DNA of 64,000 nt from assembly GCA_963920765.1 (NCBI GenBank), contig OY987242.1, positions 27,056,002 to 27,120,001 of the forward strand, given 5' to 3'. Source of the DNA: Ulota crispa. Taxonomy: Eukaryota > Streptophyta > Bryopsida > Orthotrichales > Orthotrichaceae. Positions 12,917 to 60,956 of this stretch are shown one piece after another. Made by a program: the position numbers and the translations under genes. How positions within the stretch are numbered: the stretch's first letter is position 1; each line of letters begins with the position of its first letter. The notes beneath the pieces were generated by a model. That model ran no database searches. It was not told the DNA's origin and saw only the letters and a list, made by a program, of their open reading frames with translations.

Positions 12917-13839
12917 TTAACCCTAAAGGACCAAGCAAAGTTTTCACCAAAAACTCTTCAAAATTGCCATTTTTAGAGCATCAACCAAATTTGAAAACAA
13001 AAACATTTATATGCATATGTGAACGTAAGTTCTTTGTAGAAGAATGGTTTTAGAAAATGTGGAAAAAAATTCAAAGTTTTCCACTAGGTGGATTGAAAAT
13101 TAGAATGGTTTGAATATTCAAAAACGTTTTGTGAAAAATCGGGCAGCTACCTTTCAAAAGGTGAAATTCCTAAGGGAAAAAGGCCATGTGGGTGGTGCTT
13201 ATGTAAATTCTTTATTCCACCTAAGTAAAGTACATGCCAAAAAAGTTTCAAATCATTTGGAGTTGTATAACATATGAAAAAAATAGTAAGTAAAAAGTAG
13301 TAGAGAATGATTCAAAACACTAAGTTGTTAAGAATTTAATTATGGAAATGAAAAATGCCAATCCCAATGGTCATAATGTTGTCATAAAAAATATTCATCC
13401 TTTCAGTTTTTTTTCTTTTTCCAAAATAATGAAAATTGAGTAAAACAAAGGACTTCAAAGTTTATTTTGGAGTAGAGAATCCATAACTGCCCACAAACAA
13501 AAAATCCTCATAACATTCATCTCGTTGATCCAAACGGAATGATTCAAAGCTTCGTACATTCACATAAATCTCCTAAGCCAATTTAAAAATTTTGTTTTTG
13601 AAAAAAGCGATTTTTAAAATTTGCCTGGGCTACCTGACAAACATAAAAAACAACATATTAGGCCATAACTTTTTACTCATAATTCCAAATGTCATGAAAT
13701 TTAGTGCATATGAAAAATAAACATTGTCCCCACATTCTATTAAAATTTCAGCCTAAAATTTGAAAAGCTCCAATCACAAGTACCTGCCCAAAATCACTAT
13801 GTTTCTTAAAAAAAGGGGGTCTAGTGCTTTAGGGGTTAA
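12917..13839 (-). mobile_element. TTAA-bounded non-autonomous transposon, copy 1 (inverted)
   Basis: The 923-bp element begins TTAACCCTAAAGGACCAAGC and ends CTTTAGGGGTTAA. Internal landmarks are shared, in reverse orientation, with 42946-43874 and 59166-60094: the frame around ACTTCAAAGTTT, GGATTTTTTGTTTGTGGGCAG read in reverse, and ATTAAGTTCTTAACAA. It holds no transposase. TTAA ends with CCC-starting inverted termini resemble piggyBac elements. This copy is the most diverged of the four. Confidence 0.75.
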
Positions 13840-29350: not shown

Positions 29351-30272
29351 TTAGGGTCATTAACCCTTTAGAGACCACCAAACCATATTTTGGTTTGGGA
29401 GAGTGGTTTTTGGCTTATAGAGTAAAATTGCTCAACAATTTGGAAACCAGTCTTGAAGAATGCTTGTGCTCACAAGAATTTTGCATCCAACCAAATAAAA
29501 CACAATGAAAACAAGCATGTGAGTTGATAAACAATGATATTTATACGGCATAGTCTCAAAATACGTATCCATATTTGGTCAAAGATGGATCAAAGCAACA
29601 ACACAATGCATCAAACATCCAAGAAGAAAGTCAAATTTCAATTGTGCGGTCCTAAAAATTTTCAAATTCCTCAAGAAATATGCTTGTATTGTTTCTCTAT
29701 ACGGTAGTAGCATAATTGTAATATTTGAAGATCTATTGAAATGGTGCTATCATTTCATATTAAAAATTTGTTATCCTACATTTAAGGCCAATTCTTTATT
29801 GTTTTCACCAATTGGATTTTCCACAGCATTTGTTAATATTTTAGTAAAACTGTTTTTGGGTAGCAAATAAAGTGGGAATTTAGACCCTTTTTGTCCACTT
29901 AGCTACACCTTGTGATTGCTATTTTTGTCCATTTTGTGTGAAACTAGTCTTAATGGAAAGATGATAAACCCTACTTTTTAGAAATATAAGGCTCTTCTCA
30001 AGCAAAGCATGTATGAAGGAGTAATATCCAAAACTACACAAGCATGAAAACTAGAGATTTTCCACCTACAACTCACTCAATCATTATAATATTTCACCTT
30101 TAATGGTGGATCTTGTTGAAATCTTGATACTTTGCAAGGAACAAGGTATTCTTCCCATTTGTATAGTTAGATTATTAAAATTAGGTCCATATTTGATTTA
30201 GTTATTTATCCAAGTTTACTACCATGGTTTCTAATGGATTTTGTGAAAATGTGTGTGGTCTTTAAAGGGTTA

Positions 30273-30635
30273 AGGGGTGGTTCACATCAAGTCCCACATC
30301 TCTTTTTGCAAGTCCCATGTCAACATCAAATCCCAACTTTGTTGAGTTATTTAGGGCAAAGTGGAATACTAAAGAAAATTATGAATATCTTATGTAAAAT
30401 ATTGGTGGGACTTGGGTTGAAAGTTGGGTTTAGGAAAAATGGTTGATCCAAACCTTGAGTGAAGTTCCACCCTTTTTGGTGCCAAAATTTTCAAAAAGTG
30501 TTTGCCATGTGAGCAAAATACAATAAAAAAGAATGTGGGACTTGTATTGTGAAGCGTCATGTTCCAACTTTCAACACTAAACCAACCAAACACTCAAATT
30601 TTAGTGGGACATGAGATGTAGTGTGAACTACCCCT
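30273..30635. mobile_element. MITE with AGGGGTGGTTCACA inverted termini
   Basis: The left end AGGGGTGGTTCACATCAAG pairs with the right end read in reverse, AGGGGTAGTTCACACTACA. Both ends also carry GTCCCAC/GTGGGAC motifs. The 363-bp body is non-coding; the reading frames across it are composition noise. Confidence 0.7.
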
Positions 30636-36115: not shown

Positions 36116-36746
36116 CTCCTCTCCAATGCCTTTATATTCTCCGCTCTCCTCCTTCGAACTACATCTTCGTAGTCGGCAGCTTTGTTCGGGGCAAGCAATA
36201 TTGTCCTCGCGCAGAGAAACGTGTAGGATGTAGTGTTTTGATGTCTTTATGCCCTCTTGGAGTTTCTCGCTGTTAGTTTTCTGTACTGAAAGAGGTTTTG
36301 TGATTGTTTTGTTGCTCTTGTAAACAAGTTTATGGCTGGTAGTGTTCTGAATTGAAAGAGGTTTTGTGATTGTTTTATTGTTTTTGTAACAAAAGGCCTC
36401 TGGTATCTGGTGCTGCCTGAGCAAGCCTTGTGCTTTGTAATGATGCAGCGCCTCGTAAAGGTAGCCGATATGGAAACGGTCAGGCGCGACGTGGGCTGGG
36501 CTATCCCTTCACCATTACTTATGTCCTGTCCATAGTAGATAAATTTCTTAGGAGTCTCTTTTGTTTTGTGCGTCTGCCTGTGATGGTACCTCTACGGGCG
36601 CAGTTGCAAACGGAGCTGGGACCTTGCTTGACAAGGAGAACCTCCCTAGTATTCCCTTGCATTTCTATGACGCTTATCTGTACACTGAGGTTCTCTATAT
36701 CCACTTTTGTATGTCGAGTCCTTCACAGAACCATGTGTGTAAGGAA

Positions 36747-36803
36747 GTGATGAGGAAGAATTGTCGCCCCAGTCCTATGCGGGCAAATATGCTCCCTGAG
36801 GAT
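36747..36803 (+). ncRNA. Possible box C/D snoRNA (weak)
   Basis: A perfect C box GTGATGA (36747-36753) is followed 42 bases later by a D box CTGA (36796-36799), a normal spacing. The terminal stem is poor and I cannot match the guide next to the D box to rRNA. Its position upstream of a better snoRNA is the main support. Confidence 0.3.
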
Positions 36804-36867
36804 TGACTCTTTACTTTTCTGATTCTTACATGGTGGAAATATTAGGTCGCTTGTTGTGTATTGCTTA

Positions 36868-42025: not shown

Positions 42026-42945
42026 TATGCAACATGTTCTAAAGTAGGTGCAAGCCTTGAATCTTTTGGGCTGCATGAGAGTTTCAAGTCACGCCCAGCC
42101 ACTTCACGCAAGTTCACACCATTGTCTCCTAGAAAACTCATTAAACCCCTAAACGCCCAATTGACCAATTTTTGGTTGCTGCCCTTTTTTTTGGGCTGCC
42201 TAAAATGAAAAAAAAAAAAATTGAAAAAATTGAAAAAAACATCATATAGAAAAGCGGGTCTACTTCCCAACCCAATTTGAATCATGTCAATCCAAGTTAA
42301 ACTCTATCAAGGAGAATTTTTCAAAGAAAAACACTTCAATATTTGCTAGTGTTACAAAATTTACTATTTTGGGAAACTAATGATGTTCTCTCCATCAAAA
42401 CTATTGCATTTTTAAACTTTCAAATAGAATGTCTATTTTAAACCAATCATACCAAATTTCAAACTGAATGAATAATTCTTAAAATTTTGATGAATATTAA
42501 ATGGTAAATGAACTTTTTTTGAATGTTTGACCGTATGAATAATTACTAAACATCATGATTCTTATTTTCTCTTTAGAAGCAACCTTCATCAAAGTTACAA
42601 AAGTATCATTTTATAATGCATCTATGTTTTGCCCTTACCCCTCTGGCGTTTAGGGGTTAAAGGGGCCTGGTGAAGTGGGTGGCAGGAGATGCTCTAAGAT
42701 TCATAGCCTTGATCTAATCAGCTATTCCAAAATAGTCCTGCATGATGCATTTTATAATGAACCTTAACCCTTGAGCGCCCTAGCAATAGGATCATGTCGT
42801 TGGGGCCCACAACTTTATCTCACTTTTTCTTTTAATTTGTACGGTGAAAACAATCATGGCTGGTCTTTATTAACAGAGAAGGTAGTCCTTTTTCAAATCC
42901 TGCGGTCACTTTTTTTGGATGTAATTTTCCAAGTTGTGGTGGCCA
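42026..42945. other. AT-rich DNA, no gene seen
   Basis: It contains isolated TTAA-type motifs (TTTAGGGGTTAAAGGGGCC at about 42648; TTAACCCTTGAGCGCCC at about 42764) that may be ends of decayed TTAA elements. Confidence 0.4.
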
Positions 42946-43874
42946 TTAACCCCTAAAGAACCAAAGTCCCCTCGAGGGACAAATGGGATTTTGGGCATGT
43001 ACCTATGGCTAATCTACTTTTTATGATTTTCTAAAACTTTTATTGAAGGTGGGGAATTCAAAGATCTATGTGGGCATCTAATTTTTTCTTCATTCTGACA
43101 TTTGATGAAGAAGCTATGCATGAATTTATGAAAAATGGTATTTGAGGGGCAGCCAAAAACTGCTTTAAAAATTTCATTTTTTTCAAATTAAAATCTGAAA
43201 TAGGTTCTTTACACTTATATAGATGTAGGGAGCTTTGAATCATTCAATTTTGATACATCATATGAAAGTTATGAGGAGTTTTTGTTTGCGGGCAGTTCTA
43301 GATTCTCTACTCTAAAAGAAACTTTGAAGTCCTTTATTTCACTCAATTTTCAATATTTTGAAAAAAAAACAAAACAAAAGGATGTAGATTGTTTATCACA
43401 ACATTATGACTATTGGGATTTGCATTTTTCATTTTCATAATTAAGTTCTTAACAATTTAGTGTGTTGACTCATTCTCTACTTCTTCTTACTTACTATTTT
43501 TTTCCATGTGTTGTATAGTTCCAATTGATTTGAAAAGTCTCCCACACATACCTAACTTGGTCTCCTACATGGGAAAAATAAACCACAACTTTGTGCAGAG
43601 TAATTTTTTTGATCTAAGAGTGGTGAAAGCCTTCTGAAATTTCTGGGCAGCACCAAAAAAAACTCAATTCTGCAATTCAGATGTAAATATCTCACTCATT
43701 TTTGTGTAGATTGAGCGGAATTTTCTACCGCGTGTACCTTTTGTAGTCTACTATAAGATCTTACGGTTGAATTCTTGTAAAAAACTTTTTTTGTTACCAT
43801 TGTACTTGCTTCCCCAAAAGTGGCAGTTTTCTGTGTTTTTCACATAAAAAATGGCTTGGTCCCTTAGGGGTTAA
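42946..43874 (+). mobile_element. TTAA-bounded non-autonomous transposon, copy 2
   Basis: The 929-bp element begins TTAACCCCTAAAGAACCAAA and ends GGTCCCTTAGGGGTTAA. It is almost identical over its central and right parts to 59166-60094 (for example GCGGAATTTTCTACCGCGTG and ATAGATGTAGGGAGCTTTGA in both), so the two copies are young. There is no transposase frame. The TTAA borders and CCC-starting inverted ends resemble piggyBac. Confidence 0.88.
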
Positions 43875-45389
43875 ACCCCCATTTTCTCCTAAATCCAAAA
43901 ATAACTTTGGGCGCTTAGGGGATTAATTAATTGTAAAAAATGGAGAGAATTTGAGAGCTATAGGGGTTAGGAAGTAAAAAATGAGTATCTATGAAAAGGA
44001 ATACATAGGGAGACGGGCCCTAGATAATCCACCCAAAATAAACAGTGGATCATGATGCTCACCAACAATCCCAAAATTGGCTAAAATTTGCCCAGATTCT
44101 ACCAAAAATCCATCTACGCTACAAGTACATGCAACAAATCTTCAAAAAAAAGGAAAAAGAGCAGATAATCAAACTTGTGCGAGGAGGCGGTCAGGATCAA
44201 CGCTCCCACATCAATCGCCACGTCGCGTCCGTCAGCTCTTGGCAATCTAGCGTAATTGCCAACTTCCGATCTGGGCCGTTGCTAGGTCGCCTTGGCGGCT
44301 ACTGCTGCACCATCCGATTTGCGACCCCTCCACCTGCACAAGTAGAGAAGTAGCATTAGTAGGCTCAGTATGAGCGACTAATGACAAGTGTACATGTGTC
44401 TGCTTAGCATTGTTGCTTGCTCTGCAACGGCCTCACAATTATTTGTTTTAGCCGATGATTGCTTAGCGATGGCAGACTTGGCAGATTTGGCGCTTGGCTG
44501 GCAAAGCTTGCCAATTTGCCAGGGGTTTGCCAGACTGCCACAGATTCGTTGCTGCAAGATTGCAAAAGTTAAGGTTTCCTTGCTTCATCATTCAATCTTG
44601 GATTCTTCATCTCTTAGTTTCTGACTCATTTTTCTTACATCTTCCTTGAGTTCTTTCTTTTTCAAATCTTTGCCTTTGTGAGTTTGTGTTGCTTACCTGC
44701 TCTGCGGCCTACGTCACGCAGCCGTCGTTTTCGGTTTGAAATCAATGCTCTCCTAGCCCCACCGTTCTGATACTTTTGTTTTTGTGTTCCGTGGCCACCA
44801 CAAGCAACAAGCATTGCAAGCTAGAGTGAAAATCTAGAGGCTGCAATCTAGCCTCAGGCATTCATTGCTGGTTTGAAATGCTGCATTTCTAAGGGGATGT
44901 GGAAAATTTCGTAAATGGTGCCTGGATCTCTGACGGTGTCATCCGCGAATCCGCGTTCCAAGCCAACCCCCGGCCCCCTAGGCTTAATTGCTCACATTTG
45001 TGAGTTTTTAAATTGCTGCTGCCGCACGTGGTAGAGCACTCAAACTCCGCCATTTCTATTTGTTCTTGATGTTTTCTTGAGCATCTGCGCTGTTTTTTTG
45101 TTCATTTTTGCTTTAGTTTGTTGGTTTTCGTGCTGTGTTCTAAACTTACAAAGCCATCTTTCTGTCCACCATCTCTCTCAGCGGCTAAGGCATTTGGGAA
45201 CGAGGGTTTTGTTTCATTGGGGTTTCATTGGAAATGCACTTGGGTTGTAGTTCTCATTGACTGGGAGGGTTTATTTTGTCTCATGTTGGCCTAGTGTTGC
45301 CTATTTTGTGCAATGTTGCTTACTGCTTACTTTCCGAGGCTCTATCCAATTACGTTGTGGTAGTGTGGATCTGTCCCATGCCACCTTGA
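43875..45389. other. Intergenic DNA, GC-richer from about 44.2 kb
   Basis: A 102-codon frame (44045-44353) and a short frame at 44388-44624 are not recognisable proteins. The stretch could include the 5' end of the hAT element, but I could not identify its terminal inverted repeat. Confidence 0.4.
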
Positions 45390-48300
45390 CTGAGACTTCT
45401 TGAAAACTTTTGGTTTTGGACCTTTGGATCTAGCCGGAACAATAGTGGTATTGGAAAGTACTTACCTACTTCTAGCGTCAATGTCACGCATGTCTTCGAG
45501 ACACATTTGTCCGAACTAGCGTCACAACCTGCACCTAAGGGGGGGCTTGCCTTTGAAGTCACCGTTTTGTCACCAACTCCTACTCTCAATCTTGAAGTTG
45601 TGGAGGTGTTGAATGATAGCGAGTGTGTCTTTGGTGGGTAGAAGGAGTTGGAGGCTTCATGTACTGCCAAAAAAAGAAGAAAAGTGACCCCCAACACTCT
45701 AAACAGACGCTGGCAAGAGGTGTGGGCTTGCAAGTACGCCTGGGCTAAAGCTGAGTTCAATGAGGAGGGAGATTTGACTAGCGTCCTTTGCCAAAGTTGC
45801 ACTACTGTCAGTGGAATGAGGAAAGTGATGGTGCCAAAAGGGGATAACCTCAAAAAGCATGAGGAGAAGAGGATCTGCCGCACAGATAGAGTCCCCCTCC
45901 CCCACTTGAAGAAAAGTGAAACCTTCCTTAGTGCTGATTGCAAGAATGTACGATATTACAAGATTTGGGCAGCGTGCAAGTAACCAATGATTGTGCTTGA
46001 TCTACTTTTAGTACGCTTGGAGGGTGAGATGAAGAGAAAGGGAGTTCAATTTTCTACCCTTTTTCAAGTTTTAACACATAGGCGCCCAATGTGTGATCAT
46101 GAGCTTGAGCAATTCCTCCTAAGGCATTTGAAAGTTAAACACTTGCCTAGGAAGCATTGGTCTGAAACTAATGGGTGGGAGATGAGTGAGCATCTCCATG
46201 GTTCTGTTTTATTGGCTTTGAAGAATGTTGTTCAATCTGCTAGGTTCATCTCTATTAGTTCTGATGAGGTAACAGCTACTGACAACTCCTCTTGGATTTG
46301 TGTGCATGTGTATGCTATGCAGTCTTGGGAGAGAATTCCTCACTTGTTGTTCTTATCTTGTGTATTGGAGAGTGGGACAGCAGACTATCTAACCAAGGTT
46401 ATCATGGGTGCTTTGATGTGTGCGGGAGGACTAACTAGGGAGGAATTTCGAGGTAAGTTGGTTTGTTTTGAGGGAGACGGAGTAAACACATTTCAGGGCC
46501 CAAAGAATGGGGTTACAACATAAATAAGAGAGAAATGGGCTCTCTTCACCTTGGGGGCAAGTTATGCATCCCATAGGGTGAATCTGGTGGTGGAAACACT
46601 CTCCAAACACCCTCTAATCTCTTGCCTAGAGAGCATGTTCCAAGCCGTTTATTCATACTTTTGCAAGAGTAACAAACGTCATGCAGAGCTGCAAAAGCTT
46701 GTTGACCTCATGGAAACTAAGGGCAACAAAATGAAGCGCAATGTGGAAACTAGGTGGATCTCCATGCGCAGCCTAGCCTAAAGAGTAATGTTTGAATACA
46801 AGACATTGATGGTGAAAATGGGCCAAGACATGACTAGGGGGCCCAGCCACAAGGCCATTGCTGCAGCAAGGGACAACTTTGATTTCTTCTCAGACATTGA
46901 GGTTTTGTTGTCCCTTGCTTGTTTTCTTCCTTTGTTGAGTTGTGTTCATTCTTTGGTGAAGTTATCTCAGGTACGTGATATTTTTATATGTGATTTTTTA
47001 CAAGCTATTAAATTGTGTCAAAGTGAGTTGGCAAGACTTTTTGTTGATAGATCAACTTCTTACAGCACTTTAGACTTCAAGACTTACAATGACTTGATAA
47101 TGCTAAGCTATGAAGACCTTCCTCTCAAATGCAAGGAGATGCCAGAGGACATTGCTATGTCCTACTTGTTTTTTGATTTTGAGATCAATCAAGTCTTTGG
47201 CCAATGCCATGACAAAGAAAGTGGCCAGCACAAGTTTGTCACACGTAAGGAGTATCAACAAATCCAGCATAGCATTGAACAACAATTTGCAGGTTTGAAC
47301 TCCTTTCTTTGTTTTTGATTTTGAAATTGTTGTGATAAAATGCTAGCTATGTTTTTTTGTCATTTTGTTTACTTAATTATGAATTTCTTCTAACTTGGAA
47401 TGTGCTGATTTATTGGCGGGTGAGGTTCCATTGATTTATTACTACATCAAATCTAGGCTACTTTTGAGTTTTGAATGATCAGGTTTGATAATCTGATTTT
47501 TCATGGTGTCATGTGTTCAATTATGGTTTGAGTTCAATGTAACCAAAATATGTATTGAGTTGTTGCTGCCTTTGGGCTCCTTCTTTTCTTACTCTGTCGA
47601 TTCTTGCTTGTCTGTTTCAATCATAGGTCATGTTCTTCGATGTTCAATGTTACGTGTTGAGAAAAAGGCAAAGTTTGTGGTTTTGTATTTTTAGTTTTGT
47701 AACGTTTTTACTAGTTTTCTTCTTTGGTTCTTTAATTTCCTTTGGTCTCTCATGTTCATTAGGTTGAGGGTTGGTTTGTCTCAGGGAAAATGGTTTGAAG
47801 TAAAGGAGGGCGAGTTTCAAAGTTGGTTATTTTTAAAAAAAATTCCATTTGTTTCCTCTTGAAGTCACTATTGTGTTTGCTGGAGAATTAGTGCTTATTG
47901 GTTTGCCTTGGCAAAACAAGCTGGAGGCCTTGGTTTTGTGGATTAATGACTCCATTGGCTTTTCATTCCATTCAGAGTAATCCTAAAACCTTGATTTTTT
48001 GGATTAATGATTTGGTTGGGTTTTTATCCTTTTCAAATATTTCTTGTTGAATTCAATTTCATGTTTGCTCTTCATTTGGTTTGTTGTTGGAATGCTGGTT
48101 TGCCTTGGGAAAAAAGAGGTAGGGCAGCATTTTTGAAGATTCCGACTTACTTGTTTCTTGATTTCTTGTACTTCTTCATTATTTAATTCACTTTGCTCTT
48201 ACCTATTTAGTTGGTTCTTTATTGGTTTGCTTTGGAAAAATAAAATGTTAAGGCAATGGTTCTTTTTTTTTCTGACTTGGTTGGTTTCTAGTGAGTGTTT

Positions 48301-48959
48301 GTCTTTTTTATGCAGATGTTGCACAAAACCTCTGTGACGAGCTTGACAGCAAATTCCCCCAGCAAGAACTTCTAGATGCATTTGGCATTATTTACCCTCA
48401 ATATTGGAGGTAAGATGGGGCAAAGGAGAGTTTTCCTACTCACTTGGAGATTCTCAAGAAATTCTATTGCCATGTGACAACCTTGAATGGGGATTCCTCT
48501 AGAGGGCCATCCTATACTGTTCCAGAAATGCTTTCTGAGGCACACTTGCACAATCAGCAAGCATTGTTCAAGATTACTATGAAGGCACAGAGTGAAGTTG
48601 CATGTGGCCTTCTTTTCTAGCAAAACCCAATTGTAAAATTGTGGAAGACTCTCTCCCAATCGTGCCACTTGACCAAACTAATTTTAGAGTATTTTAAACT
48701 CGTTGAAATTGGTTGTTGCATGGTTTTAGGATCAGTGGAGGATGAAAGGTGTTTCTCAACACTTAAATTTTTGAAGTCTTGCCAAAGAAATTGTCTTGGC
48801 ACGCACTTACCTCTTGCGGTAAGTATGTTTGGTCAAAAATATTACACATTAGAAAACTTCCCTTACAAAGAAGCTATTGACTCTTGGAGGAATGCCGTTA
48901 AGGTGGGACGCCAAGGGGATGTGTACACCAAGAGGTGGGCTGCCATGGATATGTGGTAA
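45390..48959 (+). pseudogene. Dead hAT-type transposase with one intron
   Basis: One reading frame continues from about 45390 to 47292, then across a GT-AG intron (47293-48315) to TAA at 48957-48959. Order of parts: a basic, BED-like N-terminal region (RRWQEVWACKYAWAKAEF, CQSCTTVSG, GDNLKKHEE); the RNase-H-like core (ISISSDEVTATDNSSWICVH, CFEGDGVNTFQGPKNGV, SHRVNLVVETLSKHP, ETRWISMRSL); and the C-terminal dimerisation region (GSVEDERCFSTLKFLKS, NCLGTHLPLAV). This architecture fits the ZNF862/hAT-like family common in plant genomes. Six in-frame stops break it: TAG 45639, TAA 45981, TAA 46521, TAA 46779, TAA 48411 and TAG 48618. Several stand where relatives have Gln (as in GVTT-stop-IREK). 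No frameshift is seen. Start codon and element ends were not found. Confidence 0.85.
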
Positions 48960-49162
48960 CCCTAAAGCACATTTGTATCCTCAGCATGTGTCATTTCAAT
49001 TTCACCCTTAGTTTTCATGAGGTCATGCTAGCTTTGCAATTCCAAAGTGGATCCAAACTTCAAGGTTTACCAAATTGGCCCTTACATGGAGTGGTGGATG
49101 ATGGAGCGTGGAGTTCAAGGCATGCAAGACCGGAAGTGGAATTTGAAGCAGCTTCTAAACCC

Positions 49163-49275
49163 TACTCCTAACTTAGTCTACTAGTGTGTGCTTGTTTGTC
49201 TAGTGTTGTGTGCAGGTCACTAACTTAGTCTACTAGTATGTGCTTGTTTGTTTAGTGTTGTGTGCAGAACACTAA
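49163..49275. repeat. 54-bp tandem duplication
   Basis: CTAACTTAGTCTACTAGTRT, GTGCTTGTTTGT and TAGTGTTGTGTGCAG occur twice in succession downstream of the hAT relic. Confidence 0.85.
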
Positions 49276-49479
49276 CACTGCAATTTGGGCAGTCTTACAC
49301 TCTTGCAAGTTGGGTTCAATCCCCAAGTTAGTGACATGAGCTTTTATAATGATGAATGTGCAATGTAGTTGCATACTTATTCATTTCTTCTTTGCCTTTC
49401 TTGAAACATGTGCATTTCTATGTTGCCAACTTGCCATAGTAAGACATGTTTTTGAATTAGTTTTCAACTTACACTTGAG

Positions 49480-49730
49480 CAAATTTGTTGCCATTAAGTT
49501 CCATTGAGTGTACACTTAGTGTAAACTCAATGGAATTTGCTTGAGTGTAAACTCAATGGCAACAAATCTACTTGAGCCATTTTGTTGCCATTGAGTTTAC
49601 ACTTAATCATATTTGTTGCCATTGAGTTCCATTAGTGTTCACTTGTAGTGTAAAATGAATAGTATTTGCTTGAGTGTAAACTCAATGGCAATAACTTTGC
49701 TTAAGGCAAATTTCATTGAATTTTCACTCA
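49480..49730. repeat. Interleaved inverted repeats of TTGCCATTGAGTTTACACT
   Basis: The motif and its complement (AGTGTAAACTCAATGGCAA) alternate at least six times with CTTGAG and ACAAAT spacers, so the stretch can fold into several hairpins. It is non-coding. Confidence 0.75.
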
Positions 49731-50299
49731 AACCATAAATTCAAATTTGTTCATTTAGTTCATAGTTTCATACTTAAGCAAGTTTCTGCCATTGAGTTCA
49801 CACTTTCTTTTGCTACTTCATACTTCACACTTGAGCAAATTTCACTAAAAATTTTGCAAGTACTTCATATGATATGCAGTCACTTAGCAATTTCATCTAC
49901 ATCTGTTCAAGAAAATAGCATTGGATGATCTCCACAAACATCAGCAGGATCGCAACTTGCCTTATAAAAATATAAACAAAATCACAACTTGCACACTACC
50001 TAGGAAAAAGTAAATACACAAAATTTCACCTTTTTTAAAAGCAGGTATCTGCCCTGTTCTCACTGAAAAAGTTGGTTCTAGCAAAGACAGCAATTTGTCC
50101 GGGAGGCCTGTAGACCAAATGCGAAAATTGGAAAATCAGTTCTGGGATCGCTGATGCTCACAAATAAGCAGAAGTCATGGCGAGGTGCATGGAGTCTGAC
50201 ATCCACATGCCTCGACATCCACAACCAATCGTAGCCGTCGATCTCCCAACCACAAAGCGACGGCTTCTAAAACTCGACAACAACATACATAACCACGTA

Positions 50300-50598
50300 A
50301 GATCTACGCAGACTCTAGATGCTCTGCCCTAATTCACGGTCAGTTCTCAGCCGTCGGATGAAGAATCGGACGGCTATAAGATCGCCGCTGGGACCGCCTT
50401 TGCAACTAGATCTTTGCTGCTGCGTTGCCGTGTGCGAGGGTGGTGGTGTCTTGTGGAGAAGCCCGCGGCCACCTTCATTCCCCTCTCTCAAGTTTTGCGG
50501 AGTCACGGCTGTGCTCGTCGGGACGTCTGCCGCTCCTTGCGTCGTCGTTGTTGTTGCCACTGCCGGTGTTTTTTTTTGTCGCAGCCTCGCTTTTCATC
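50300..50598 (+). promoter_or_regulatory. eIF5A 5' region
   Basis: This GC-rich stretch precedes the eIF5A start codon. A TATA-like GGCTATAAGATC at about 50371 is followed by a pyrimidine-rich leader (TTTTTTTTGTCGC) just before the ATG. No experimental start is available. Confidence 0.4.
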
Positions 50599-52087
50599 AT
50601 GTCTGACGACGAGCACCACTTCGAGTCCAAGGCCGACGCCGGAGCGTCCAAGACCTTCCCTCAGCAGGCCGGAACCATCCGCAAGGGCGCTTACCTCGTT
50701 ATCAAGAGCCGCCCCTGCAAGGTCCGCTCCCTCTCTCCCTCTCCTAACTTAATTTCACGCCTGTTTTCCTGTTTGTCAATTTATCGGCCTTTTTAGAAGT
50801 TTGCGTAAGTTGTCGCTGTGGCGATGCCTTTTTTGCGTGCTTTGTGGTTACGAGGGTTTCGGTTATATCTCATATTACTACGGTTGTGTCGTCATTGATA
50901 TGATCCGGCAGTGGATATGTGTGGCGACAATTTATCGGCCTTTCTAGAGGTCCGCGTAAGTTGTCGCTGTGGCGGTGCCTTTTTGAGGTTGCGAGGGTTT
51001 CAGTTGTGTCTCATGTAACCACGCGACGCGGTTGTGTCATCATTGATATGATCCGGTAGTGGATATATGTGTCGAAGTTTGGGGAAGAGAAATCCGAGAT
51101 TTGGAAGCTTTTTTCGGTTTTGCGGTCTCTTAGGGTTTGACTTGTAATTTATGATATCCAATTTTTTTTGGTGACAATGTATATTTTGTTTCCGATGGTG
51201 ATCGGCGTGGTTTTTTCGCATCTAATTGTGGTGGAGATATGATGTTTTCAGGTCGTTGAAGTTTCTACCTCGAAGACCGGAAAGCACGGACACGCCAAGT
51301 GTCACTTTGTTGCAATTGATATCTTCACCGGGAAGAAGCTTGAGGATATTGTGCCCTCTTCTCACAATTGTGACGTGAGTGAATACTATCATCCCGCGAT
51401 TGTATCATGCATGGCTTAAGCTTAATTATGTGAGCTTATTGTATCAACTTGTTTTTGGAAGGATCTCAATTATTTTCTTGTTCCATCAGGTTCCTGAGGT
51501 GGTGCGTACCGATTACCAGCTTATCGACGTGTCTGACGATGGATTTGTGAGTATTGTAACTTCAATTCTGGATGTTTTGAAAGACCCTGTCCACGTGTCC
51601 GCATCCTTCTCTTTCTTTCTTTACCTTTATTATAAGTTAGTTCGCCTTTTTTGTTGATCCCCGATGTATCGACTATGTACCTCGTGTTGTGGAGAGATTC
51701 CTTAGTTAGGTTGTGACGCGGAACCCCTTCTTTGTCTTTACTGGAGGATACTTATGAAGTGTTATGTGTGTACAGGTGAGTCTCCTCACCGATAGTGGTG
51801 AAACGAAGGATGACCTGAAGCTGCCAACGGACGAGGCTCTTCTTTCTCAGGTATTTCTTTTGAATCTACGCTTGTTATATAATTTTCGCTTTTGAAGGAA
51901 CTTTAGTGTGTGCAGTTGTCTTAATTTTTCCGAAATTTCTTAGGGTTTTCTAACGTGTAGTACAATCGTGTTTTTATAGCTCAAGCAAGGTTTTGGTGAA
52001 GGCAAGGATCTTGTCGTGACCGTGATGGCCGCTATGAATGAGGAGCAGATCGCTGCCCTGAAGGATGTCGGAGGCAAGAACAATTAG
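50599..52087 (+). CDS. eIF5A: Eukaryotic translation initiation factor 5A, five exons
   Basis: eIF5A relieves ribosome stalling, for example at polyproline, and aids termination in the cytoplasm. Exons 50599-50721, 51252-51374, 51490-51546, 51776-51850 and 51980-52087 join through GT-AG introns without phase breaks into 161 residues, the usual family length (about 158-160 in plants). Landmarks: [17 protein letters not shown] start; [19 protein letters not shown], where Lys52 of KTGKHG is the expected hypusine site; [29 protein letters not shown]; and the C-terminal [19 protein letters not shown]. The gene ends with TAG exactly where relatives end, which also shows that TAG is a stop in this genome. 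It looks functional, with intact splice sites and no disruptive codons. Confidence 0.97.
50778..51075. repeat. About 150-bp tandem duplication in eIF5A intron 1
   Basis: AATTTATCGGCCTTT, GCGTAAGTTGTCGCTGTGGC, GCGAGGGTTTC-like and CATTGATATGATCCGG occur in the same order at about 50778 and 50929, with about 10% divergence. Confidence 0.88.
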
Positions 52088-53728
52088 ATATCTGCAGTTC
52101 CAGCAGGCATTGAAGGCAGTGATGTGATAGGTTATTCTTATTTTCTTATGTGGTACTGGATGGCCCATGATGTTTATTTCATATCTCGGTTTGAGAGAAA
52201 GAGAGCTACTTGTGGATGAGGTCATCGGAGGCCATACACGCTACTCTCAGGAAGTCGTTCTCCGTCCTACTTGAATGTCAGGTGTCAATGTAGGATGTGT
52301 AGAATGTCAAAGGAAGAGTTTAGAGAGGGTGCAATCAGTCTCGGAAGGCAGGGAGGGAGTCTGGACTTGTGCTGCCAACAGTTATCAAAATGGAATTGCT
52401 GGTAACAATTAAGCCATTATAGGATGCATTTACTGTTGGGGGTGTGAATTATGGATTTATAAAGTTTGCGGAATCTTTTGCAAAGAGTAGAGATTTGTTT
52501 TCTCAAACTGTTTGTAAGATCGTTAGTGCGGTGCACGTTATAGATTTTTTTCCAATTTAGTTGCCTTGTTGCGGTCGTTAGATTCTGGAGCTAGTCTATT
52601 GTTGGCCTATCAGGCAAAGATTATTTTAGGGTCGTAGCACAAGCTGTACGTGGCTGTTATATTTACCATCTGCGTTTTCTGAGGGTACAGTTATTCGTCG
52701 TCAACTACCAAAAGTCTAGTGCCTAGGACAAACCCCTCTTACAAATATCATGAAACTGATGCTTCTTAGATCTAGGACCTAGCCTATCTGATATCTTTTC
52801 CTGCCCATTTAGCCGACTGAATGATCTTGTACTATTTCTAGTTACCCTGCACCTCAGTTAGAGTCCTGCACAGGATTTGAAGGATTTTGTATTCTGTCTG
52901 TCCTCTTTCGAAGAAGGTGAGGCTGTATCATATTGCGTTGGTGATCTTTGGTAGACATCCAATAAAAATTTGGATAAAAGTAAGAAAATCTGCAACTCGC
53001 TGCTTTTTCTTGCAGCACCTTATGATTGGAAAATCTATTTATAATCCACCTTTCTCGTGGTCAAGTTTATCCACCAAGCGTTATGACATACGCTACAGTT
53101 GCTATGTCCTCAAAGATTCCCTGGCTTCTTGTCCTTAGTGCAAGTGTTCCAAAAGTTTGGTGGTGTATTTTACTTTCCAAAATTTTAAATTAAAATCTAA
53201 AAGGCAACAAATTCTTATTAGAGCTGAGCAATGGTTTTCATATTGTAGTGTGATTATATTTTTTGGATTAAAAAAATGCTTAAATTTGATGTGTGTTGGA
53301 TGTTATCACGGAATAAAAGAACTTTTGGAGAATAATAGTAATGAGATGCACAATACACGCCAACTACTTATTACTCCATCCAAATAATGGGACTTTATAA
53401 GCTCATTCAAAACGTCATTCTATTAGTCCTACACTGAATATTGCATTTAGGTTGCCTTGACGATTAGATTGCCTTATCCAGGTAAATTACCTCATGGCTC
53501 ATCACTTGACCATTTGGAGGTGCATGCAACTTTCTAAATATTTAGATTTTACATGATTTAGGAGGTGTTCGTTTATTTTTTTGAAGCTTCATTGTAGTTG
53601 AGAGGCCCTTTAAAAATTGTTTGTTGTAGGAATTTTTTAGGAAAACTATTGTAGCAACATTAAATATTTATATAGTGTGAAATGTGGAGAAATTAGTGTG
53701 GGGTAACTTTAACACAATATTCACTGTA
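52088..53728. other. eIF5A 3' region and AT-rich intergenic DNA
   Basis: The first few hundred bases are less AT-rich and probably include the 3' UTR. No further gene was recognised to 53.7 kb. Confidence 0.45.
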
Positions 53729-54044
53729 GGGAAACATGGATACCCCTAAAGTTTGCCATATTTACATAGATACCTCTTGTTTTTCATGAATTACACAAAT
53801 ATCCTTGATCCATATTTTTCAGATGTTTGTTATATTGTGCATGTCACTTCTTTCCTTTGTGTGCATGTTGCTTCTCTTATATTCTATTGCACTCCTTGTT
53901 TTAGCATTGGTCATGAGAGAAGTAGTGTGCACAACAAATCACATGCCTGACAATTATGAACCAAGGCTATTTGTGTGATTTTTGAAAAACAAAGGATATC
54001 TATGTAAATATGACAAACTTTAGGGGTATCCATGAAAATTTCCC
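53729..54044. mobile_element. MITE with about 75-bp inverted termini
   Basis: The left part GGGAAACATGGATACCCCTA, then AAGTTTGCCATATTTACATA, is repeated in reverse at the right end (TATGTAAATATGACAAACTT, then TAGGGGTATCCATG). The arms extend to ACACAAATA. It is 316 bp and non-coding. Confidence 0.88.
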
Positions 54045-56427
54045 TTGTTTTCAATGGTTTATGGATCAGAAGAAAATGTGTTTTTAAGGCTTACAACACT
54101 ATGAGAGAATTTGAGGAATGATAATGAACTCAAAGCCCGTCATTAGTTTGTTAGAATTTGTTGCAACTTTACAAAAGAAATAGTGTTGTCTTGTTAGTTT
54201 GATTTTGGGGTTTGGTTGTGTTGTTTGTCTAACATCTAATGTTGAGTATGATAAATATGTGTGTGTGACATTTTTGTTCAACAAGGCCAAATTTAACAAT
54301 TGAGATAATTTGAAAGTTTACTTTAGATATGACCCAAATTTTAGAATCTAATAAGCGTTTATTAAATTGAGATACTTCAATAAAATAAAACGTTAATATG
54401 TCAAGATCGGAAATAAAGCAAGTAAAAATCAACTTTAAAATTGACTTTATTAGACGAATGGAAGGCTCTTGTCAGTCAGTAACATTGTGTTTGTCGATTT
54501 GTCGCCAGGTCTGAAAAGACAACCCTAAAGATCAAAAAGAAATTTTGATCAATAAAAAAGATTGAGTTATTTTTTCATTCATGCATGCTTTGGGTATTCT
54601 GCGTATTCTGCGGCTCATAAATAACAATATGGCAATGAAAAAACAATTGTTTATCTTTATACTAAGATCTCAAAATTACATGCACATAGTGTCCAAAAAA
54701 GGAGGCCTTGAGTATGAAAGGGAAGGAGGGAAGGGAGGAAGTCGAGAATGAGGGAAAAATAAAAATAAATCCAAAACATTTGGTGGTTGACGGAACCTGG
54801 GCCCAAAAGTAATAACAATTAGAGAACCACTCAACTTTTTGATGTCCTCATTTTGGTGAAGTCAGTGGCACCAAGTCATGACATCAACCCTTTGCTCAAG
54901 ATTGGGAAATTTATAAAACAAAGGAGTTATGTTATGTGGTAAGGTAGGAGAGCTCGTGAATCGATCACCTCAGGGAAAGTGCGATTGTGTCGAAAAATAA
55001 GGGCAGCTTAGCGAAATGGAAGTATTTTTGGTAGAAAGTCAAAGGAGAGTTATGTGGCCATTTAATATGAAATTTTCTGAGTCAGTATGAATTAACTATA
55101 ATTTATCAAAGCAAGAGATGCATAGGCAGCTATTTTTGATAGTAGGTGGTAGCATTCATGATTCAAAGGCGGCTCGTAAATGGGGTACATGGGTTGAATA
55201 AGCAACCAATACAAAATTGAGAATGCTCCAATAAGACCCTTAAAACTTGCAAACATTCATTCCATATTCTAATACTCAAATTATGATTGAAAACACATTT
55301 TCATTTATTTTGGTATGACATATATTTTACTCAAAAACAAATCTCAACACATAATTACAATCAATAAGCACACTCAACAGTGGCTCATGTCACTCTCTTA
55401 GGTTCCTAAAATTGTGCACGCACAAGTACAATTTCTGAACATAAAGAATGTGACCCACTTAACCCCTCACTGCCCATGGTACTTTTGAGTATCTGAGAAT
55501 TTGCTTGAAAGTGAACAAAATGCCGGCATTTTGATCAATCTTATCAATTTTCTTTGAAGCACAGCTGTACAAATTCAAAGTAGACATGTTATAGATCACA
55601 TAGGAAAGAAATCACAATAATGTCACTTGTGGATTGAAAGATTATAATGTTTGATCATGAGGGTGTTAAAATTGCGAAAGTGATTTGAACTCTTTCAATC
55701 CTCTTTTTGCATCTCAAACCTAAAACTGATGGTACCAAAAAAAAAATAAGTATGTAAAGTATAACATGTGTAACCCCAATCAATTTACGGCTTCTCAAAA
55801 TCTAGTTTACGATTTTTTTAATTGAATTGTTAATGGGATTTTTTCTCCAAGTTTTAGTGTACTTGAAGCTCATATCCAAGAGCCTTCAACACTAAAAAGT
55901 GAAGATTTACAATGGCCTTGCACAAAATCTTGAATAGACAAATCACTTTAATTCATTTCCAAAAATAGACTCCTAATACTAAAACTAGACTTTAATAAGA
56001 ATTTAAAAATAATAATAATTACTAAAAAAAATCTTGAAAAAGGTCGGGCAACTTTGAATAAAATTAAGAGAGGCCTATTCAGGCCCCTTGGATTGTGAGG
56101 GATTAAGAAACTTTATATATTGTTTTTGAAACCCCTACAAGGGATTCTAAATGCCCTAATGAAGTTCGAGCCTCCTACCTTAGCAATTTACGGTAGTACA
56201 GTAATGCTCTCAATCTTAATTCTTACTTATGTTTGTAATCATAGTTCTACGTGTATACAGTTTTTGGGCATCAAGACATAACCTTAATGCAACAAGATTC
56301 AAAATTTTAAAGTTTTGTTCAAGTGTTTGGTAGCATTATGTTAAACTGGGGGGAATTTAAGTAATTGCAGCTCCTTTAGCTACTTACCAAATGATGACTT
56401 GATAATTCTTTTTGATGAATAAATATA
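54045..56427. other. AT-rich intergenic DNA, no gene seen
   Basis: Only short frames. No recognisable RNA gene. Confidence 0.45.
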
Positions 56428-56840
56428 GGGAATTAATATGTGCACACCGGGGTTGATATTTGCACACCTACTAGGAGGTAAATTATAGATTTCTATCATC
56501 TAAAAGTTGAAGTTGAGAATTTTGAATTTAGATTTGGACTTAGAGACCATGATTTAATCTAGAATCAAAAAAAATATTGCAATTGAACAACGCTCAATGA
56601 AAAAGCTTATTTTTTTTTATAAACAAAAGTAAAAAGTAACACTTTTATCCCTAGCTAAGCTTTCATTGAGTATTGTTCAATTGCAACCTTTTTTTAAAGT
56701 TTGAAACTAAATCATGGGTCTCTAAGTTCAAATCTAAATTCAAAATTCTCAGATTCAGATTTTTGACAATAGAAATCTATAATTTACCTCCCAAGGGGGT
56801 GTGCAAATATCAACCCCCCGGTGTGCACATATCAATTCCC
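56428..56840. mobile_element. Foldback MITE family F, copy 2
   Basis: It runs from GGGAATTAATATGTGCACAC to GTGTGCACATATCAATTCCC, inverted throughout, with the same arm motifs as the copy at 10051 (ATGATTTA, GCAATTGAACAAC, TTTATAAACAAAAGTAAAA). Confidence 0.88.
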
Positions 56841-56871
56841 TAAATATAAACATATATGTATATATAGTAAA

Positions 56872-57247
56872 GGGAATCAATATAGGCACACATAGGGTTT
56901 GTTATATGGACATTGGGGGGGGGGTAAACTTTAGATATTCACTAGCAACAAGTGAATTTAGAAAATTTGAATTTAGATTTGGATTTACAAACCTTGATTT
57001 AGTTTAGAATCACAAAGGAGGTTACAGTTGGACAATGCTTAGTGGAAAAGCTTAGGTCTTTTACAAACAAGGGTAAAAGTAATAATCTCCACTAGACGTT
57101 ATTCAATTGTAACCTCCTTTGTAGTTCTAAACTAAATCAAGATCTTTAAATTTCAATTTGAACTCAAATATTTCAAATTCAACTTATTGATGATAAACAT
57201 CTGAAATTTACCCCCATATAACAAACCCCAAGTGTGCCTATATTCCC
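56872..57247. mobile_element. Foldback MITE family F, copy 3
   Basis: It runs from GGGAATCAATATAGGCACAC to GTGTGCCTATATTCCC. Arms pair through TAAACTTTAGAT-like, TTTAGTTTAGAA and GGAGGTTACAGTTGGA motifs. It lies 31 bp from copy 2 in the same orientation. Confidence 0.85.
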
Positions 57248-57295
57248 TAAATTAATAAGTAGCATGTATAGAACCCAATAGGAAATACATGTACT

Positions 57296-57403
57296 ATACA
57301 ATCTCCAGAAAGAAGTTTGAGTTTTTCCTTTTTCGCCATTCAAACAACTTGCATAATATTGAACATAATTGGAATTTTTGTTCTCTTGTATCATTGACAT
57401 TAA
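57296..57403. repeat. Left arm of an inverted pair (partner 60953-61063)
   Basis: TACAATCTCCAGAAAGAAG, GCCATTCAAACAACTTGCAT and TCTTGTATCATTGACATTAA recur in reverse complement at 60953-61063 with few changes. Both arms end exactly at a TTAA that borders inserted elements. Confidence 0.88.
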
Positions 57404-58054
57404 AGTCTTTTGCGGTTTTGATCAAGCGTGCCAAATTCTAATTCCAAAAAACAAAAATCCCTAGTGAATTCTTTTAATAATATTCATGGTTTTACATGGT
57501 AGTTGATTAAAAAATATTGGTGATGAATTTTTGAGATTTGATTGCATGGGTATGTAAATAACGCCCACAAGCACATTTTTTGTGTTACAATAAATCCCAT
57601 TAAACAACAAATATATGATTTATGAAGAATTTTATGTGAGGTATGGTATGACCAAACTTTGTTAAATAGATATCTCTATTCTGAAATTATTTTTTGGCAA
57701 AGTAATCATATTATCATGCTCAAAGGTACAAACTTGATCATAGTGTGCAAGTCAAATAGCAAATTCTAATCCACATAGAGAAATGTTTATTTTACAATAT
57801 TTGGACATAGTTGCCCAACAATGAATCTCTAAGAAAATAATTTTGAATTTTTTTGGAGATTCTTGTTAGAAGGAAAGTTGTGTGTATGGATGTCACCTAC
57901 ATACCCATGCAATCAAATCTCAAAAATTCATCACCAATATTTTTTAATCAACTATCATGTAAAACCATGAATATTACTAAAAGAATTCACTAGGGATTTT
58001 TGTTTTTTGGAATTAAAATTTGGCATGCTTGATCAAAATTGCAAAAGATTTTAA
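57400..58054. mobile_element. TTAA-bounded foldback element related to the 41.1-kb palindrome
   Basis: Left TTAAAGTCTTTTGCGGTTTT and reversed right TTAAAATCTTTTGCAATTTT are both followed by GATCAAGC. Arms (about 57404-57570 and 57885-58050) share ATTCATGGTTTTACATG and GATTTGATTGCATGGGTATG with the 882-bp palindrome. It shares the TTAA at 58051 with the next element. Confidence 0.8.
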
Positions 58055-58132
58055 CCCCTAAATACCCAATGGTATTTTTCCCATTTTTGGAAGGTAGTTT
58101 TGAAGTTTTGAATTGTCCTTGTAAGATCATTA

Positions 58133-59074
58133 TTAACCCTTGAAGGCCCAAGCCCTTTTTTTTATGAAAATCACTCAAAACTACCACTTTTGGGGGAGTG
58201 AGGAGAAATGTAATTTTTGTTTTTTTGGAAATCCAACCGGAAAATCTTGCCCTAGACTATGGGAGGTACTTGTGGGAAAAAAATCAGCTCATTCTAGTTG
58301 TAGAGTGAGATATTGACATTTGAAGTGAAAACAAAAGTTTATTTCCGTGCTGCCCAAAATTTTCAGAAGCCTTTGATGGCTCCTATATCAAAAAAATTGC
58401 TTTACGCAAAGTTGAGGTTTATTTTTCCCATGTAGAGGACCAAGTTAGGTAAATGTGGGAGAATTTTCAAATGAAACAGAGGTGTGGATTATACTATAAA
58501 ATCTTGCAATGCCATAAGGTCATGAAATTTGCATATACACTAAGCAAAATTGGAGGATTTATGTAAAATTCAAAAACCCAAATTACTTTGATCTAAATGG
58601 TGAAAACCAATGAATCTTAGTCTACTACAACTTGCAAAAAGAAAAGTCAAAAAACAAATACACAAAGAGCTCAAAAAAGTAAAGCAAATTTTTTTACAAG
58701 AGGCAAAAAGAATGGAGGTTTGCGTTTTCCATACCTACCTGCAAACTAAAACTTCTCATTACTTTCATCTCATCTATTAGAATTGAATGATTCAAAGCTT
58801 CCCAAATACAGAAAAAATTAAAGAACCAATTTCAAATTTTTGTTTACAAAAGTTGCAATTTTTTTTTGCTGCCTGATTCTCCCTTGTTTTTCAGTTGTTC
58901 ATGCATAACTTCTTCAATAATTGTCAGAATGAAAAAAAATTAGATTCCCACGGAGATCTTATAATTCCCCATCTTCCATAAAAATTTCAGGAATCACACA
59001 AAGTAATTTAGCCATAGGTACCTACCCAAAATCCCATTTGTCCCTCAAGGGGACAATGGGCCTTTAGGGGTTAA
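58133..59074 (-). mobile_element. TTAA-bounded non-autonomous transposon, copy 3 (inverted)
   Basis: The 942-bp copy runs from TTAACCCTTGAAGGCCCAAG to GGGCCTTTAGGGGTTAA in reverse orientation relative to copies 2 and 4. Shared landmarks read in reverse are CTATGGCTAAATTACTTTG, TGGGGAATTATAAGATC and CCCACATTTACCTAACTTGG. It is more diverged than copies 2 and 4. Confidence 0.82.
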
Positions 59075-59165
59075 ACATCAAAACAAAAATGTAACCATTG
59101 AATCTTGAACTTCAAGGTTTCTAGATGGCACTACCCAAAAAGAATCCAAAATGGCCGCGTAGATT

Positions 59166-60094
59166 TTAACCCCTAAAGGACCATAGTCCACTCGGGGGAC
59201 AATTGAGATTTTGGGAATGTACCTATGGCTAAACTACTTTGCGTGATTTTTTGAAACTTTTTTTGAAGGTGGGGAATTCAAAGATCTATGTGGGCATCTA
59301 ATTTTTTCTTCATCCTGACATTCATTGAAGAAGTTATGCATGAAAACTTGGAAAAAGCTGCTCCCCGGGCAGCCAAAAACTTCTTTAAGTTTTTTATCTT
59401 TTTCAAATTAAAATCTGAAATAGGTTCTTTACACTTATATAGATGTAGGGAGCTTTGAATTATTCAATTTTGATACATCATATGAAAGTTATGAGGAGTT
59501 TTTGTTTGCGGGCAGTTCTAGATTCTCTACTCTAAAAGAAACTTTGAAGTCCTTTATTTCACTCAATTTTCAATATTTTGAAAAAAAAACAAAACAAAAG
59601 GATGTAGATTGTTTATCACAACATTATGACTATTGGGATTTGCATTTTTCATTTTCATAATTAAGTTCTTAACAATTAAGTGTTTTAACTCATTCTCTAC
59701 TTCTTTCTACTTACTATTTTTTTCCATGTGTTGTATAGTTCCAATTGATTTGAAAAGTCTCCCACACATACCTAACTTGGTCTCCTACATGGGAAAAATA
59801 AACCACAACTTTGTGCAGAGTAATTTTTTTGATCTAAGAGTGGTGAAAGCCTTCTGAAATTTCTGGGCAGCACCAAAAAAAACTCAATTCTGCAATTCAG
59901 ATGTAAATATCTCACTCATTTTTGTGTAGATTGAGCGGAATTTTCTACCGCGTGTACCTTTTGTAGTCTACTATAAGATCTTACGGTTGAATTCTTGTAA
60001 AAAACTTTTTTTGTTACCATTGTACTTGCTTCCCCAAAAGTGACAGTTTTCTGTGTTTTTCATAGAAAAAATGGCTTGATCCTTTAGGGGTTAA
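59166..60094 (+). mobile_element. TTAA-bounded non-autonomous transposon, copy 4
   Basis: It begins TTAACCCCTAAAGGACCATA and ends GATCCTTTAGGGGTTAA. It is near-identical to copy 2 over about 700 bp. The 74-codon frame inside it (59633-59857) is AT-rich noise. Confidence 0.88.
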
Positions 60095-60806
60095 GATATT
60101 TGTGATTGAATGATCATGAGTATGGAATTTGCTTTTTTTGGAGCTGCCCAAAACTTCTAATGCAAATTGGCAACTTTTGGATACAAACTTGGGAAAACAA
60201 CCACTTAGGATGCTTTAGTATTTATTGTTGTTATTTCAAACCAATGGCCCCTCTTCCAAATCCATGACCACAATTTCACAACTGAGCCTGCAACGCAACT
60301 ATCAAAATGCAACCATTCAATACAAAGAAATTTTCAGCTTCAATTATTGACCAAAAAATCATTATGAATGAAATAATTTTCAATGGTAAATAGATTCTAA
60401 TTTTTATAACAAAGATATTCCAAGTGAAATTAGTCCAAAAGCACTTTTTGTTAAATGTCAAAATTTCAGTGAAAAGGCCCTTATTGCCCAAGGGAGTGCC
60501 CAAAGGAAATCTTCACCTTTTTCTCAACTTGATGCCCATCTTTTCAATGTGGCAACTTCTCATAGGCTTTGTGATACTATTCACAACACTATTCATGATA
60601 GAAAATGTATGCTTGTAGTTAACCTTCCACCAAAAACAAATGGAATAAGATATGAAGAAAGTTGAATTTGAGCGGTGAAGCTAACTTCAGTGCGCAACTT
60701 TTCCAAAAAAAAATCTCAAAACAAGAAAATATGTGCCTACAATAGGGTTTCAAAGTTTCCTGAAATTTTTTGGACACTAGAAACTGGTGCCTTGGGCATT
60801 TAGGGG

Positions 60807-60956
60807 TTAACCCCTAAACAACCATCGGGAGTTGCTCTACAAGATTATATTTTCTGAAAATACCCTTGCAATCGAACTGTTGAACAATGCGTTTCACAAG
60901 ATTAGTATACGGTGGACATACAGCCACAAAGGGCGTTTGGGACATTTAAGGGTTAA
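60807..60956. mobile_element. 150-bp TTAA-bounded MITE
   Basis: It starts TTAACCCCTAAACAACCATC and ends GGGACATTTAAGGGTTAA, with ends imperfectly inverted. It shares its left TTAA with the outer element and its right TTAA with the inverted arm at 60953. Confidence 0.65.

Follow-up and report, generated by a model that had tools for sequence, protein, structure and literature searches.

TTAA-bounded non-coding elements and their piggyBac-type coding relatives in the genome of the moss Ulota crispa

The window considered here is a stretch of 64,000 nucleotides of contig OY987242.1 of the moss Ulota crispa, and the genome in which its contents were searched is the 274.8-Mb assembly of 157 contigs, 11 of them apparently large. 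The window contains four copies of a TTAA-bounded element of about 0.93 kb, which the original prediction, made from the letters of the window alone, had taken for a transposon family with piggyBac-like ends in a plant. The four copies are as follows:

12917..13839, (-) relative to copy 2: copy 1, a non-autonomous TTAA element of 923 bp
42946..43874, (+): copy 2, 929 bp, running from TTAACCCCTAAAGAACC to GGTCCCTTAGGGGTTAA and sitting in the 42764-43926 element
58133..59074, (-): copy 3, 942 bp, nested in the 58051-60810 element
59166..60094, (+): copy 4, 929 bp, nested in the same 58051-60810 element at 91 bp from copy 3

The coordinates predicted for these copies, with a TTAACCC start and a GGGTTAA end, were found to be exact in all four, the left end of copy 1 being short of one C (TTAACCCTAAAGG). 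The inverted ends that had also been predicted can be aligned over 19, 18 and 25 bp in copies 2, 3 and 4, respectively; the best local inverted alignment of copy 1 is internal, away from the ends. TTAACCC or GGGTTAA occurs 25 times in the window against approximately 8 expected from the trinucleotide frequency, and six further copies taken from elsewhere in the genome (L003-L008) all have the TTAACCC...GGGTTAA structure. TTAA is present on both sides of all 11 elements compared (copies 1-4, a fifth window element and the six from elsewhere). The 10-bp flanks outside the TTAA are dissimilar among the 11, save for L003 and L004, which have AGGGG or AAGGG at the left TTAA, as if they abutted another TTAA element.

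Between copies 2 and 4 the identity is 94.7% across 929 bp, copy 3 is 75-77% identical to these two across both outer stretches of approximately 350 bp, and copy 1 is 82-85% identical to them across approximately 320-370 bp of the middle. Copies 2 and 4 had been described as nearly identical, and recent movement had been deduced from their similarity. The description holds for an internal tract of approximately 656 alignment columns with 6 mismatches (99% identity) and fails at the ends, where 38 of the 49 mismatches fall in the first approximately 233 columns and 5 in the last approximately 53. Since the ends diverge on either side of a 99% tract and the copies are 16 kb apart, the relation is read as gene conversion and gives no evidence of recent movement; by comparison of the sequences, conversion of the internal tract would fit the pattern better than recent hopping. 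Recent local transposition of one copy from the other is an unlikely account of the same likeness. It agrees with the spacing of only 16 kb and with the fact that copy 4 is the best match of copy 2 (95%, the next having 93%) among the best 40 of 9,968 genome candidates, but the mismatches are spread as unevenly as would be expected if an internal tract had undergone ectopic gene conversion, and the 15 pairs formed by the six other genome copies differ by 6-8% (the difference between copy 4 and these six being approximately 10%). Lengthwise profiles were obtained for nine pairs, and neither of the two among them that belong to these 15 has a 99% tract.

Copies 2, 3 and 4 were found to be nested in other TTAA elements, which the original prediction had overlooked:

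58051..60810, (+): older host element, TTAACCCCTAAATACCC...GGGCATTTAGGGGTTAA, approximately 0.9 kb without copies 3 and 4, of the L022 piggyBac end type
42764..43926, (+): older host element, TTAACCCTTGAGCGCC...GGGCGCTTAGGGG(A)TTAA, approximately 0.24 kb without copy 2, its right boundary approximate

The three insertions in two older repeats reveal a layering, in that the TTAA elements invaded by the family of the copies are older and have two end types that differ from its own; the piggyBac element at L022, a transposase locus elsewhere in the genome, has one of these two types (TTAACCCCTAAATGCC). Nesting also gave access to empty sites. For copies 3 and 4 the query consisted of the first 439 bases of the 58051-60810 element with both copies removed and one TTAA kept per site, and it was found uninterrupted, at 91-92% identity, in 40 of 40 genome copies scored (the best 40 of 1,811 candidates). 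For copy 2, 39 of 40 scored host-repeat matches run through the site, the 40th being the filled site itself. When 10 host-repeat copies were fetched for each site, a single TTAA was present in 10 of 10 for copy 2, in 7 of 10 for copy 3 and in 9 of 10 for copy 4. The recovered sites are never-occupied paralogous ones; they provide, for three of the four copies, the single-TTAA empty sites that had been proposed as a check, and neither a different target duplication nor conserved sequence past the TTAA was found for copies 2, 3 and 4. Thus, TTAA is the target and is duplicated at insertion, and the element ends at CCC/GGG.

A large family had also been anticipated, and the genome-wide search with the terminal sequence bore this out. 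Exact matches to the 17-bp end TTAACCCCTAAAGGACC number 8,154 (4,072 + 4,082), against 0 + 0 for the backwards control, and those to the 13-bp end without the TTAA, CCCCTAAAGGACC, 9,597 (4,753 + 4,844), against 2 + 1 for its control, with TTAA directly before it in 85% of the cases (8,154/9,597). Among the first 100 listed end places there are 17 adjacent facing pairs less than 1.5 kb apart, 13 of which are 903-963 bp long; strand shuffling of the same 100 places yielded 4.7 facing pairs on average, with a maximum of 12 in 2,000. In the search with copy 2, the element is spanned in full or for the most part, with 90-100% identity, by the best 40 of 9,968 candidates (copies 2 and 4 included), and a further three rows match it partially. 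The many isolated TTAACCCYTWAAG motifs from which the family size had been guessed are absent from the window, where each of the 5 exact matches belongs to an end of one of the four copies, but the motif is indeed abundant in the genome (22,383 matches, versus 69 for the backwards control).

Coding relatives were looked for with PF13843 (DDE_Tnp_1_7, the piggyBac transposase domain), which gave at least 120 match rows above the cut-off with 116 of 528 candidates scored; in a control of 14 genomes there were 0 matches, which is counted as little evidence. Two of the loci, L035 and L036, carry the right end of the window family, and a 4-kb extension led to their left ends, so that the longer element with a DDD-type piggyBac transposase and the same ends, for which a search had been suggested, was found twice:

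C5:24506226-24515054: element A, 8,829 bp, starting with TTAACCCCTAAAGGACC and ending in its near inverse
C9:12440860-12449389 (L036/L040): element B, 8,530 bp, starting with TTAACCCCTAAAGGACC and ending in its near inverse

The left ends are identical to that of copy 4 at 91% over 182 bp in A and at 80% over 177 bp in B, the right ends at 76% over 359 columns and at 73% over 368 columns, respectively. Copies 2-4 have approximately 180-210 bp of the left end and approximately 355-530 bp of the right end in common with these 8.5-8.8 kb elements, and a non-coding middle. In both A and B, approximately 2.85-2.88 kb separate the start of the PF13843 domain from the right end, and approximately 3.1 kb separate it from the same type of right end in a third relative, L021, the left end of which was not located; an apparent left end (TTAACCCCTAAATCATAAAAG at 1075; 14/20 bases) was rejected as its partner as a poor match. 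Just past the transposase gene of L021 (5530-6129) lies a simple tandem array with 52-base self-match steps and a THTYIHTYI-like translation, and element B contains an 875-bp near-perfect palindrome (94.7% self-complementary).

A and B might be composites, formed when a piggyBac element inserted into larger repeats bearing the ends of the family, with the transposase as a lodger. The left 5-6 kb of both elements does contain other repeats, some of them palindromic, which indicates that nesting is common here. However, the two elements, which lie on different chromosomes and have 65% identical DNA, show the same arrangement and a nearly equal distance from transposase to right end, L021 repeats that right end, and the interior of A and B holds no further exact TTAACCC end, hence no exact pair bounding a lodger (degenerate internal ends were not searched for). 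A composite origin is, by taking these features into account, very unlikely.

The transposase of A, read with its stops as X, matches Trichoplusia ni (T. ni) piggyBac (6x67, E 6.8e-20) and Myotis piggyBat (9c0f, E 2.2e-14), and that of L022 matches the same two proteins (9c0f, E 1e-24; 6x67, E 9.8e-20). The three catalytic Asp residues (DDD) of the piggyBac core are aligned in both transposases against 6x67 and 9c0f; in A, the Asp of 'tiDE', 'DNff' and 'gvDvaDq' fall on the piggyBac residues, which we take to be D268, D346 and D447. The C-terminal Cys-rich domain, putatively zinc-binding, is intact in B (CVVC...YCPSCG...CRGCFQKFH, a CxxC-CPxC-C-C-H pattern), has one Cys replaced by Trp in L021 (CPSW) and is frameshifted in A, and the C termini of L022 and L025 are similar to this tail. 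These data also bear on the proposal that the copies belong to a different superfamily that also duplicates TTAA, such as the TTAA-specific Sola3, and resemble piggyBac at the ends only. A TTAA duplication with short inverted ends is indeed insufficient, alone, to prove piggyBac, but A and B, with the same ends and with no other exact TTAACCC end inside, enclose a PF13843 transposase that in A is aligned at the three catalytic Asp residues, which leaves this proposal with an extremely low probability. Sola, or another superfamily of TTAA type, was rejected on the grounds that the coding relatives carry PF13843; no Sola profile was searched.

The four copies are, almost certainly, non-autonomous, internally deleted, non-coding members of a piggyBac-superfamily DNA transposon family of a moss, presumably moved in trans. 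The long elements would code for a piggyBac transposase made of the DDD core and the C-terminal Cys-rich domain. The enzyme would act in trans by binding both ends, as kept by the non-coding copies, would cut the element out and would insert it at a TTAA, with TTAA on both sides as a result. Cutting at the ends and insertion at TTAA are established piggyBac chemistry. The piggyBac interpretation of the original prediction was upheld overall by what is observed, namely the ends, the TTAA target and its duplication, the ends shared with transposase-bearing elements, the catalytic residues and the abundance of the family, with the 'plant' host narrowed to a moss through LEAFY, as set out below.

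That the transposase moved the copies, by cut-and-paste chemistry and with seamless excision, is what we infer. Several points weigh against the piggyBac interpretation. No movement has been observed. With 105 of 577 candidates scored, an intact transposase of the matching subfamily was not found, nor, as far as the sequences can tell, was the actual mobiliser of the copies. A and its 17 best matches (at least 50% identity) in this set contain at least two stops each, so that the subfamily looks decayed or dead and is presumably inactive at present, although unscored copies remain; the closest stop-free matches to A among those scored are two partial ones, with 46% identity, at C2:36.77 Mb. 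The right ends of A and B are 72-76% identical to those of the window copies, and the two elements would therefore be cousins of the copies rather than their direct parents. Flanks were read for a small share of the transposase loci (20 of approximately 116 scored, 4 kb per side), and before extension paired ends judged convincing, i.e. script-found TTAAC end pairs 5.0-6.0 kb apart with 14-19 of 20 bases matching, were present in 7 of the 20 (L019, L020, L022, L023, L024, L026 and L037). Finally, the empty site has GTAA in 3 of the 10 fetched host-repeat copies for copy 3 and TCAA in 1 of 10 for copy 4.

The seven loci with convincing ends each have their own end sequence, and L019 and L028 have approximately 5,027 bp in common, at 90% identity, which stop within one base of the TTAA ends. 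Stop-free matches account for 10 of the 120 PF13843 rows. Two of these ten belong to L053 (C1:1180300-1182500, 1-2201), which keeps the three Asp motifs in two open frames split by an intron-like gap and may represent either an open element or a domesticated gene. The transposase of L038 is open, with the third Asp changed to Asn, and L054 was rejected as an intact transposase, the region of the second Asp being scrambled after DNF. Among the listed in-frame stops of the decayed transposases, TAA seems, at first sight, to be less frequent than TAG or TGA, an outcome expected where methylated repeats decay by C-to-T change.

With respect to the host, a LEAFY DNA-binding exon (L052) was found with 103 of 105 residues identical to Protein Data Bank (PDB) entry 4bhk (E 7.5e-72), which we take to be Physcomitrium LFY1. 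Matches to four other LEAFY chains are far weaker, among them 9fwy (E 6.9e-51) and 2vy1 (E 2.6e-49), the latter presumably Arabidopsis LEAFY. This moss-type LEAFY DNA-binding domain identifies the host as a moss, and the 11 large contigs do not agree with Physcomitrium, which has 27 chromosomes. piggyBac being best known from animals, contaminating animal DNA might be invoked as the source of the piggyBac sequences; the probability of this is negligible, since piggyBac matches are present on each of contigs C1 to C11, a copy of the host repeat of copy 2 (C4:16273398-16273636) is 1.7 kb from a LEAFY match at C4:16275377, and the moss-like LEAFY DNA-binding exon is 3.6 kb beyond the latter. Contamination was thus excluded by chromosomal position and by proximity to LEAFY.

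A broader proposal, for and against which the chances appear to be even, is that mosses host a long-lived and diversified piggyBac radiation, with many coding lineages, each with non-coding derivatives, in successive waves. If this is true, a large-scale endogenous colonization of a land-plant genome by piggyBac would be documented for the first time, with early green-plant inheritance or horizontal transfer as its possible origins.

The remaining features of the window include two more TTAA elements and several fragments of other kinds:

29360..30273, (+): fifth TTAA element, 914 bp, of a different family (TTAACCCTTTAGAGACC / TTAACCCTTTAAAGACC), overlooked in the original prediction
60807..60956, (+): 150-bp TTAA element, its left TTAA in common with the right end of the 58051-60810 element
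14695-17802, (-): fragments of a gene of the inositol-phosphatase family (PF00459)
36743-36825, (+): match to snoRNA U31b, 51.7 bits
38658-39095, (-): open reading frame resembling, by eye, a Tc1/mariner transposase fragment, with no Pfam family at E <= 0.01
50425-50796, (+): start of an eIF5A-like gene

Of the best 40 genome matches scored for the 29360-30273 element, 39 are other copies that are complete or almost so, at 88-94% identity. A copy of its family is also present in 3 of the 20 fetched transposase loci (L024, L034 and L038), and the best-scoring end pair of L038 (15/20) was discarded as unreliable because this separate 0.9-kb element occupies that place. The 150-bp element and the 58051-60810 element stand back to back with one common TTAA at 60807-60810 (GGGGTTAACCCC). 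An open reading frame of the window with an IFT140/172 match would fit a plant with swimming sperm.

In animal genetics, piggyBac serves as the vector that leaves no footprint. The element of the cabbage looper has been used in rice and, in the part of the source available, is described as yet to be tried in Physcomitrella (PMC5505980). As an endogenous component of plant genomes, piggyBac is seldom described, yet not unheard of, as follows from four reports, each represented by a portion of its text. PiggyBac is placed among the superfamilies present in all taxonomic groups studied (PMC4438587), is stated in an abstract to have been isolated from plants too (PMC10813416) and appears in a generic list of plant superfamilies (PMC10794571), three statements that weigh against strong novelty, and a table of the C-fern genome contains 1,230 PiggyBac copies, for 122 kb (PMC6890710). 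On the other side, a review of land-plant transposons gives six terminal inverted repeat (TIR) superfamilies in plants, with 0 occurrences of the word piggyBac (PMC9033089). Among the titles listed from the open-licence literature, none concerns an endogenous moss piggyBac, Repbase being outside the scope; in the accessible portions of moss genome papers, piggyBac has 0 mentions in PMC6723128 and PMC13120521 and 2 occurrences in PMC10619864, of which the one seen is the verb 'piggybacking'.

The family described here is real and well supported, and it represents a known superfamily in an unusual host. The moss genome, in which there are at least eight piggyBac end types (the seven and that of A and B) and one family exceeds 8,000 exact ends, shows that piggyBac can be native to a land plant and present there in large numbers. 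The nested insertions offer ordered layers for the history of a moss genome, and plant-adapted ends and transposases of piggyBac can be drawn from the genome itself for comparison.

With the piggyBac superfamily, as exemplified by T. ni piggyBac and Myotis piggyBat, the moss elements share the TTAA target and its duplication, the inverted ends starting with CCC (a general piggyBac trait according to the portion of PMC10813416 available), the PF13843 transposase, the DDD triad and the C-terminal Cys-rich domain. They differ from these two in the moss host, in long elements of 5-9 kb (the T. ni element is given as 2,472 bp in the available text of PMC10803768), in a transposase that is only distantly similar and in the thousands of non-coding derivatives. 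The latter resemble the piggyBac-related miniature inverted-repeat transposable elements (MITEs) of animals, as described for coral in the accessible part of PMC2872659, in being non-coding and in the mobilization thought to be provided by the transposase of a coding element, but, unlike the coral type, they occur in a land plant, measure approximately 0.93 kb and belong to several end types nested in each other. Finally, the C-fern entry shares with them the PiggyBac label in a seedless land plant; whereas that table, in the part of PMC6890710 available, comes without ends, empty sites or transposase, the moss has all three.

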